DNA from: a virus
Direction: 5' to 3' (one strand)
Length of the DNA stretch: 44,878 bases
Virus record (IMG/VR): IMGVR_UViG_3300027797_001656
Span: 1-44,878 of that record
Positions 2-16,669 of the stretch are shown here, in pieces. How positions within the stretch are numbered: position 1 is the stretch's first letter; every line of letters begins with the position of its first letter. The notes under the pieces were generated by a model. The model was not told where the DNA came from, did no database searches, and worked only from the letters and a program-made list of their open reading frames with translations. Position numbers and translations under genes: made by a program.

Positions 2-1345
2 GTTAATGGTAATTGTGTTCCAGTTCCATCCGTTACCCCAACAATAAGTTTAACTCCAACTAATACGGTCACACCAACGGTCACACCAACGGTCACACCA
101 ACTAATACGGTTACACCAACTATAACACCAACAAATACAGTTACTAAAAGTACAACACCAACTGTAACGTCAACATTGACAAATACCATAACACCAACTC
201 CAACAAATACACCAACTAACACAGTAACGGAAACTCCGACAAACACACCAATAGTAACGGAAACGCCAACTAACACACCTACCACAACTCCAACAAATAC
301 ACCAACAAATACGGTAACGGAAACCCCAACAAATACACCAACACCAACAAATACAGTTACACCCACTAACACCCTGACAAACACCCAAACACCAACCGTA
401 ACACCAACAGATCCACCTCCAACATATTCTAACACACCAACCAATACTCCAACTAACACAACTACTCCAACTAACACAACTACCCCAACTAATAGTCTTA
501 CACCAACAAATACGGTTACACCAACACCAACAAATACCCCAACAAATACTGTAACCCCCACAAACACAATAACACCAACAAACACAATCACACCAACTAA
601 TACGGTTACACCAACAAACACAATCACACCAACAAATACGATTACGCCAACTCAAACACCAACACCGACTAACACAATAACACCAACTAATACGGTTACA
701 CCAACAAACACAATAACACCAACTAATACGGTTACACCAACAAACACAATCACACCAACAATAACCCCAACCGTAACACCAACAACATATTATTCAATAT
801 TTTTTGTTAAAATTTGTGATAATTGTTCTGGATTATTTCCTGAGGATGGGTTTATGTCTCTACCCTCAACTTCAACAATAGGTAGTGCGATAGTGGCAAC
901 AAATGGTAGGTGTTACACAATTTTTTCCATGTTTTTGGGAACTATTACATTATATTGGAATTCGGGTGGTGGATCGTACTTAAATTGTCCTGACTGTGAC
1001 GCATCAAACCCTTGTCCAACACCAACACCAACACCAACAAACACAATAACACCAACAATGACAATGACAATGACAATGACTAAGACACCAACAATGACAC
1101 CAACAAGAACAGTGACACCAACAAGAACACCAGGAACTATTTATGTTGCCTCGTATTGTTGTAATCCTGCCATAACAAAATATGTAATACTACCATCCGC
1201 AGTACCTAATCAAATAGTTTTAGTTGGTGGACAATGTTATAAAGTAGTTAGTGTATTTAGTGGAACACCATCATTTGTTGGGACATTATTACCTAGTGGT
1301 ACAACTTGTTCTGATTGTGTTATAACGTACCCATGTAGTGCATGA
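2..1345 (+). CDS. Mucin-like Thr/Pro/Asn-repeat protein with Cys-rich modules (5' truncated)
   Basis: The frame is open from the first bases of the window, so the gene begins upstream. A TTG near base 176 could be taken as a start, but the same repeat pattern continues on both sides of it. About 260 residues are repeats of TPTNT, TPTVT and TNTIT type. Two Cys-containing modules of about 65-75 residues follow (about bases 787-1015 and 1135-1342), joined by a TPTPT/TMTMT linker. Both modules share a pattern of hydrophobic strand, Gly-x-Cys-Tyr, then Cys-x-x-Cys and a final Pro-Cys. Related modules occur in the 11981-16669 protein. The Thr/Pro composition resembles extended, O-glycosylated mucin stalks, and the next genes are glycosyltransferases. 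A role as a phage fibre or surface decoration is inferred. No catalytic motif is visible. Confidence 0.85.
   Translation, partial: VNGNCVPVPSVTPTISLTPTNTVTPTVTPTVTPTNTVTPTITPTNTVTKSTTPTVTSTLTNTITPTPTNTPTNTVTETPTNTPIVTETPTNTPTTTPTNTPTNTVTETPTNTPTPTNTVTPTNTLTNTQTPTVTPTDPPPTYSNTPTNTPTNTTTPTNTTTPTNSLTPTNTVTPTPTNTPTNTVTPTNTITPTNTITPTNTVTPTNTITPTNTITPTQTPTPTNTITPTNTVTPTNTITPTNTVTPTNTITPTITPTVTPTTYYSIFFVKICDNCSGLFPEDGFMSLPSTSTIGSAIVATNGRCYTIFSMFLGTITLYWNSGGGSYLNCPDCDASNPCPTPTPTPTNTITPTMTMTMTMTKTPTMTPTRTVTPTRTPGTIYVASYCCNPAITKYVILPSAVPNQIVLVGGQCYKVVSVFSGTPSFVGTLLPSGTTCSDCVITYPCSA
52..785 (+). repeat. Coding tandem repeats, degenerate 12-18 bp units (TPTNT/TPTVT)
   Basis: Units built from ACACCAAC(A/T)AATAC and ACACCAACGGTC follow one another with small changes. 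Unit length is a multiple of three, so the reading frame is kept. They encode the Thr-Pro-Thr-Asn-Thr stalk of the surrounding gene. Repeats of this kind are prone to slippage and recombination, so copy number may vary between phages. Confidence 0.9.

Positions 1346-16669: not shown

Follow-up and report, generated by a model that had tools for sequence, protein, structure and literature searches.

Can a phage encode a mucin-like protein together with the enzyme that initiates its glycans? This question is raised by IMG/VR record IMGVR_UViG_3300027797_001656, a linear fragment of 44,878 bp from a large, T4-like phage of freshwater type, with a family-B DNA polymerase gene at 16722-19559; the record was taken whole as the window. 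Its positions 2-16669 hold three proteins with tracts rich in Thr and Pro (proteins 1, 2 and 3), an operon of seven genes and a protease-like protein (Table 1). In the operon (1415-8192) neighbouring genes abut or overlap, the gaps or overlaps being between a few and 20 bases long; the three tract proteins flank it, and its first gene encodes an enzyme of glycosyltransferase family GT60. A long Thr-Pro repeat protein encoded beside an initiating-type enzyme is a feature of mucin-type systems. The best explanation, and in our judgement a probable one, is a phage-encoded mucin-type O-glycosylation cassette that acts on adjacent virion fibre proteins. It is carried by the gene content of the locus, by the family and predicted fold of the GT60 enzyme and by the recurrent adjacency of GT60 and tract genes.

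The GT60 protein scores 247.9 bits for PF11397, against a cut-off of 21, and matches phrog_24687, a glycosyltransferase. Its DSH motif (residues 92-94), which we take to be the conserved metal-site motif, is invariant across 45 aligned GT60 sequences. When its AlphaFold model (predicted local distance difference test, pLDDT, 90.4) was searched with Foldseek, ranks 1-23 were all polypeptide N-acetylgalactosamine (GalNAc)-transferases. The same held for ranks 1-29 of a second structural aligner, which matched residues 1 to ~330 with Z 18.9-22.0 (17.1 for the next family). A sequence search of the PDB gave five matches with E values of 0.06 to 0.08, all of them phage-type RNA polymerases. The model thus has a predicted GT-A fold close to that of the mucin-type polypeptide GalNAc-transferases, a fold being no proof of function. 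According to the available text of two reports, protist GT60 enzymes transfer alpha-N-acetylglucosamine (alpha-GlcNAc) onto Thr of mucins (PMC3769586, PMC8724618). The sequence-only reading had recognised in the operon a homologue of the enzymes that start mucin O-glycans, and PF11397 together with the predicted fold bears this out. Residues ~326-415 form a well conserved, beta-rich C-terminal extension, which neither the Pfam match nor most of the structural matches cover and which may be a domain that binds the acceptor.

Tracts were defined as 30-residue windows with at least eight Thr and at least five Pro. In the tracts of proteins 1 to 3, T-P pairs exceed expectation 2.0- to 2.4-fold and T-T pairs are scarce, and every one of the four Thr codons occurs. 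Because of this T-P excess and codon use, the order is maintained at the protein level and not merely as a DNA repeat. When 26 other proteins of the window were scanned, the tail sheath was the sole positive and the remaining 25 were tract-free; the sheath tract is rich in T-T and has no T-P excess. The open reading frames (ORFs) and repeats of the sequence-only reading, together with the operon, were all confirmed. That reading had also called the three proteins very long, which fits protein 3 only, and protein 1 is incomplete at the record edge. A full-length homologue of protein 1 in a related locus begins with a small N-terminal domain that is SprB repeat-like by eye.

The adjacency of GT60 and tract genes was then followed in near viral relatives, namely the best 80 of 190 IMG/VR matches (45 when dereplicated at 97% identity). 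Of the 80 loci fetched, 73 contained one or more tract ORFs, and a tract was present in 3 of 80 background loci chosen by an arbitrary 15-mer. The gene directly upstream of GT60 bears a tract in 31 of the 45 dereplicated loci, whereas the other ORFs in these loci predict 7.7; not one of 20,000 random draws came to 31. At positions -2 and -3 the counts were 13/40 and 11/37, and at +1 and +2 they were 0/44 each. Dereplication at 90% left an upstream tract in 21 of 32 loci. Twenty of the 45 upstream genes belong to one N-terminal family, 19 of these being tract-bearing; five further families also carry tracts, and five more genes are all tract from residue 1, their family not being tellable. The sequence-only reading had named glycosyltransferase clusters normally found with no Thr/Pro gene in the vicinity as evidence that would count against it; this is not what the relatives present.

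The adjacency was also seen in more distant GT60 lineages. A scan of 50,697 phage records at E 1e-5 matched GT60 in three only, the cultured jumbo phages XacN1, CM1 and RAS14. In XacN1, ORF334 is 47% identical to the window GT60, and ORF330, of the same operon, is 41% identical over its length to the last enzyme of the window operon, a two-part protein of the HtrL_YibB family. The tract is C-terminal in ORF325, which adjoins a baseplate wedge gene and matches a virion structural protein family. Unlike in the window, this tract protein lies ~9 kb from GT60 on the opposite strand, has one short tract, and the operon includes a carbamoyltransferase after GT60. RAS14 has an arrangement like that of XacN1. 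The XacN1 virion reportedly includes at least two glycoproteins, for which the authors suggest phage glycosyltransferases as a possible source (available text of PMC5852040). A set of 17 IMG/VR loci with relatives of the XacN1 enzyme included 8 with a strict tract ORF in the stretch examined. It lies directly upstream in 2, which are near-copies, and downstream on the opposite strand in 6, three of which have identical GT60.

On bacterial contigs, including metagenome-assembled genomes, a GT60 gene was recognised in 23 of 24 loci, and some of these contigs may be of phage origin. A clean tract gene stands at -1 in four of them (L407, L411, L412 and L429) and within two genes in two near-copies (L414, L420). 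The tract partner in L407 (Saprospiraceae) carries a type IX secretion system (T9SS) sorting tail and what looks by eye like a twin-arginine leader; that in L429 (Desulfobacterales) has PKD domains, and that in L412 (Gemmatimonas) a borderline PqqD domain. In L411:7945-11224, on a 1.3-Mb contig of Jiulongibacter sediminis, the tract gene lies between two PF11397 genes, after which come a carbamoyltransferase gene and a gene that looks FkbM-like by eye. In three Burkholderiaceae loci (L418, L419, L422) the upstream Thr/Pro stretches are weak and linker-like. The upstream gene of the only one of these tested (L418:8893-9939) encodes a fimbrial adhesin with Fimbrial and MrkD-like domains, which suggests from its sequence that pilus proteins could be GT60 targets there. 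In 395 genomes of the phylum of L411, 11 matched at E 0.001 and 8 of these exceeded the cut-off, the match being strong in the seed genome only (others E 6.5e-5 to 7.6e-4). In 395 genomes of the phylum of L412 there were three matches, two already known and the third with no tract gene in the 3.8 kb examined. GT60 is therefore rare in these bacteria.

A GT60 tree of 74 rows, built with a 'quick' method and carrying long-branch warnings, could be scored for 68 rows. A strict tract was found within two genes in 35 of these, or in 32 when the three weak Burkholderiaceae loci were set aside. The tract label needs 13 changes on the tree, at least 9 of them forced by starred branches. In 40 divergent loci scored, 21 of 583 ORFs bore tracts, versus 5 of 789 in random loci. 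The pairing thus recurs in divergent GT60s, viral and bacterial, with unrelated Thr/Pro partners.

Within the operon, the HtrL_YibB enzyme accompanies GT60 in phages more faithfully than any other, with a homologue in 42 of the 45 dereplicated relatives. It was found in 14 of 16 GT60 records, in none of the 19 longer ones among 60 GT60-free tract records and in none of 15 random records; against its absence without GT60 stands one HtrL_YibB match among the tract-gene neighbours in GT60-free records. The two-part enzyme also occurs in the bacterial loci L407 and L412. Its C-terminal part scores as GT2 in the L407 homologue, and the window's C-terminal part, searched alone, had no Pfam match. 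The other operon genes come and go: among the 45 relatives, homologues of the CmcI-like methyltransferase were found in 13, of GT10 in 8, of the gene at 2665-3444 in 5, of FkbM in 4 and of GT4 in 1, and other relatives have GT34, GT25 or different GT10 genes near GT60. This is a constant core, GT60 with HtrL_YibB, accompanied by exchangeable capping genes, which is the pattern that a variable surface glycan would predict. A fixed seven-gene pathway was accordingly rejected. Of the seven sugar-transfer and methylation genes proposed from the sequence, the tight arrangement holds, and the GT10, FkbM and CmcI/FtsJ-type members have Pfam matches; the fucosyltransferase and methyltransferases are not supported as fixed parts.

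Two of the tract-bearing proteins bear on where the acceptor would be located. The N-domain of protein 2 (~137 residues) recurs in 102 ORFs across the loci fetched (49 distinct at 95%), and its homologues have tails of very different length, some tract-free. Its model is fair (pLDDT 74.9), and the best PDB match, sole one at or below 0.001, was the baseplate of phage NF5 (E 4e-4). The viral injection device 4v96, presumably the TP901-1 structure containing BppU, appeared at E 2.1e-3 among antibody-type folds, and the BFVD viral library returned BppU-domain proteins at E ~1e-4. From this model the N-domain is possibly BppU- or baseplate-like. The likeness to the BppU baseplate proteins of siphophages is a weak match, and protein 2 differs in having a Thr/Pro tail where BppU proteins carry their known receptor-binding part. 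The tail sheath is of T4 type (PF04984, PF17482; phrog_23, E 5.9e-55), and 41 of its 63 homologues (not dereplicated) have a tract at about the same place with differing sequence, the others having none. Both the N-domain and the sheath tract point to the virion surface, neither proving it. The core of the earlier idea, a glycosyltransferase paired with an acceptor encoded next door, is supported by adjacency in phages, by divergent loci and by the fold; the virion location we infer only from the N-domain, the sheath tract and the family match in XacN1.

Several observations weigh against the cassette. Seven of the 80 near-relative loci have no tract ORF in the fetched stretch, and the upstream tract falls to 8 of 18 loci when these are dereplicated at 80%. 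The upstream gene is tract-free in 14 of the 45 relatives; 13 of these genes lie outside the large family and many are fibre-like by eye. Since 20 of the 45 upstream genes are of one family, the excess partly reflects inherited gene order, and the tract label is clustered on the tree (13 changes versus a shuffled mean of 22.8), a pattern that partial inheritance of gene order would produce; much of the pairing, as read from these sequences, is co-inheritance. A strict tract ORF is absent from 9 of the 17 XacN1-like viral loci and from 14 of the 23 bacterial loci. The two XacN1 glycoproteins are not assigned to named proteins in the available text of PMC5852040. For the phage of the window, the glycan, the peptide and the activity are predictions from sequence and model only.

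The reverse question, whether tract genes come with GT60, adds to this side. The tract set comprised 80 loci in 79 records, among the matches listed for a Thr/Pro DNA pattern; the control comprised 50 records of the 80 listed arbitrary-15-mer loci (all contigs of at least 9.9 kb and two shorter). GT60 was found in 19 of 79 tract records versus 0 of 50 controls, length (~5.0 versus 2.1 Mb) and virus type being unmatched, and is thus enriched in tract records; among the 16 tract records of at least 100 kb it was found in 8. Sixty of the 79 show no GT60, and the neighbours of their tract genes belong to portal, terminase, tail-sheath stabiliser, tail, collagen and SprB families. Among 136 such neighbours (at most four per locus), no classical glycosyltransferase was present in the 25 of 36 Pfam and 25 of 150 PHROG families listed. 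In 80 loci anchored on the polymerase gene (sheath tracts counted, many loci short), 24 had GT60 and a tract, 2 GT60 alone, 39 a tract alone and 15 neither. Searching 25 of these records whole gave GT60 in 11, and three polymerase-anchored relatives have a tract and no GT60 in 44, 89 and 60 kb. A strict dependence of tracts on GT60 is not supported, absence in fragment records being weak evidence; by sequence, tract proteins resemble virion proteins, and many occur with no visible GT60. Three phage loci (L199, L227, L245) have open frames of ~3,700 to 4,600 residues that are almost wholly Thr/Pro tract, and no GT60 was found in their records.

Alternatively, the operon could remodel surface glycans of the host, for superinfection block or receptor change, with the Thr/Pro fibres nearby through a common variable host-interaction region. 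The GT10, GT25, GT34, FkbM and CmcI-like enzymes of the island or its relatives are typical of surface polysaccharide pathways too, the island is variable, and fibre-like genes with no Thr/Pro tract adjoin GT60 in some relatives. The constant members, however, are GT60, with its polypeptide-transferase fold, and HtrL_YibB; a Pfam scan of the window operon turned up no flippase, polymerase or lipid-carrier enzyme, and bacterial GT60s adjoin genes for surface proteins (T9SS-tail, PKD, fimbrial). We regard host-glycan remodelling as unlikely.

The enzymes could also glycosylate virion proteins with another fibre, sheath or capsid protein as the main acceptor, the tracts being plain extended linkers. 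The position-specific tract excess at -1 and the recurrence with different tract proteins make this quite improbable, even though 14 of 45 relatives keep GT60 with no tract directly upstream, tracts are common in phage records where GT60 was not seen, and a Burkholderiaceae GT60 (one tested) has an upstream fimbrial adhesin and no repeat-tract protein. That the glycosyltransferases modify DNA bases, as phage glycosyltransferases often do (available text of PMC12619734), is very hard to credit: the GT60 fold and its neighbours suit protein acceptors, and no base-hydroxymethylation gene was recognised among the part of the window genes that was scanned.

If the cassette reading is right, it would act in the cytoplasm, and for its activity, acceptor, sugar, virion location and purpose we infer the following course. 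GT60 would place the first sugar (GlcNAc in the described protist GT60s) directly on Thr or Ser in the tracts of the adjacent fibre-like proteins; the HtrL_YibB two-part enzyme and the strain-variable glycosyl- and methyltransferases would extend and cap the chain; and the glycosylated, stiffened stalks would then become part of the virion, on the baseplate or the surface of the tail. They would likely serve as stiff, extended stalks, provide shielding and make the surface chemistry variable. A Skp1-type route through hydroxyproline is not favoured, as hydroxylases are no commoner with GT60: the prolyl hydroxylase family PF13640 was found in 5 of 24 GT60 records (the window has none), 2 of 19 GT60-free tract records and 3 of 7 random records, all records being fragments. 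Because prolyl hydroxylase is not a consistent partner, Thr/Ser is the likelier site. The chances seem evenly balanced for a broader version, in which a portable cytoplasmic cassette (GT60, HtrL_YibB, exchangeable capping genes and its own acceptor) passes between tailed phages and a few bacteria, providing the phages with a self-encoded, strain-variable mucin coat on baseplate fibres and tail sheath. Neither the complete pathway nor the position in the virion is established, nor is a role of the protease.

Among known systems, the phage enzyme is most readily compared with the protist GT60 alpha-GlcNAc-transferases (T. cruzi TcOGNT-2, Dictyostelium Gnt2) and the GT27 animal GalNAc-transferases. 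PF11397 (GT60), a GT27-like fold, Thr-rich acceptors (proposed here) and direct uridine diphosphate-sugar chemistry are common ground, as far as the available text of PMC3769586 and PMC8724618 goes. In contrast to those enzymes, the phage enzyme has no membrane anchor by eye, is encoded in an operon beside its proposed acceptor, has the ~90-residue C-terminal extension beyond the Pfam match, and its activity is predicted. Virion glycosylation by phages is already known from mycobacteriophages: in Che8, Corndog and Myrna, phage-encoded glycosyltransferases modify virion proteins (Freeman et al. 2023, as related in the available text of PMC12619734 and PMC12363180). The acceptors reported there are capsid and tail-tube subunits, whereas here they would be long Thr/Pro tracts, with GT60, HtrL_YibB and variable methyltransferases.

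Mucin-type O-glycosylation is usually seen as a feature of animals and protists (in part from the available text of PMC8724618). Among the matches listed in the open-access literature, no report linked GT60 with Thr/Pro or mucin-type phage proteins. If true, the present reading would mean that phages encode both a mucin-like protein and the enzyme starting its glycans. It would explain what some of the numerous glycosyltransferases of large aquatic phages do, offer a route to mucin-type glycoproteins in bacteria and reveal a viral or bacterial reservoir of the enzyme family. It can be tested now, because cultured GT60 phages exist (XacN1, CM1, RAS14).

Table 1. Features of the window that bear on the proposed glycosylation cassette.
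Feature	Position	Strand	Basis and remarks
Thr/Pro-tract protein 1	2..1345	+	Tract 337/447 aa; 5' end lost at record edge
GT60 polypeptide-type glycosyltransferase, proposed chain initiator	1415..2662	+	Pfam PF11397, E 2.7e-73
Family-less protein, variable member; possibly GT-A type glycosyltransferase	2665..3444	+	No Pfam match; DCD motif by eye
GT4-type glycosyltransferase, variable member	3441..4400	+	PF13692/PF00534, weak, below cut-off
FkbM-type methyltransferase, variable member	4381..5025	+	PF05050, E 9.7e-10; TIGR01444
GT10 fucosyltransferase-type enzyme, variable member	5019..5882	+	PF00852, E 8.8e-15
CmcI/FtsJ-like methyltransferase, variable member	5884..6513	+	Pfam, just above cut-offs, E 3e-5 to 5e-5
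HtrL_YibB two-part enzyme, second constant member	6516..8192	+	PF09612, E 9.8e-22, aa 3-252
Thr/Pro-tract protein 2, proposed acceptor	8231..10021	+	Tract 304/596 aa; ~137-aa N-domain, then variable tail
Trypsin-like protease with PEBP-like C-terminal domain	10032-11951		Motif; phrog_20754, E 1.9e-15
Thr/Pro-tract protein 3, proposed acceptor	11981..16669	+	Tract 392/1562 aa; six tracts between tract-free stretches
53-residue tract (aa 284-336) in tail sheath gene 27124-30450	27973..28131	+	Tract scan; possible further acceptor

The protease-like protein encoded between proteins 2 and 3 had been proposed to belong to the system as its maturation factor. This role was rejected and membership is not supported, homologues being present in only 3 of the 45 relatives; a PDB sequence search with the protein gave no matches. 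The fusion of a protease with a PEBP-like domain is an odd combination, found in few relatives.
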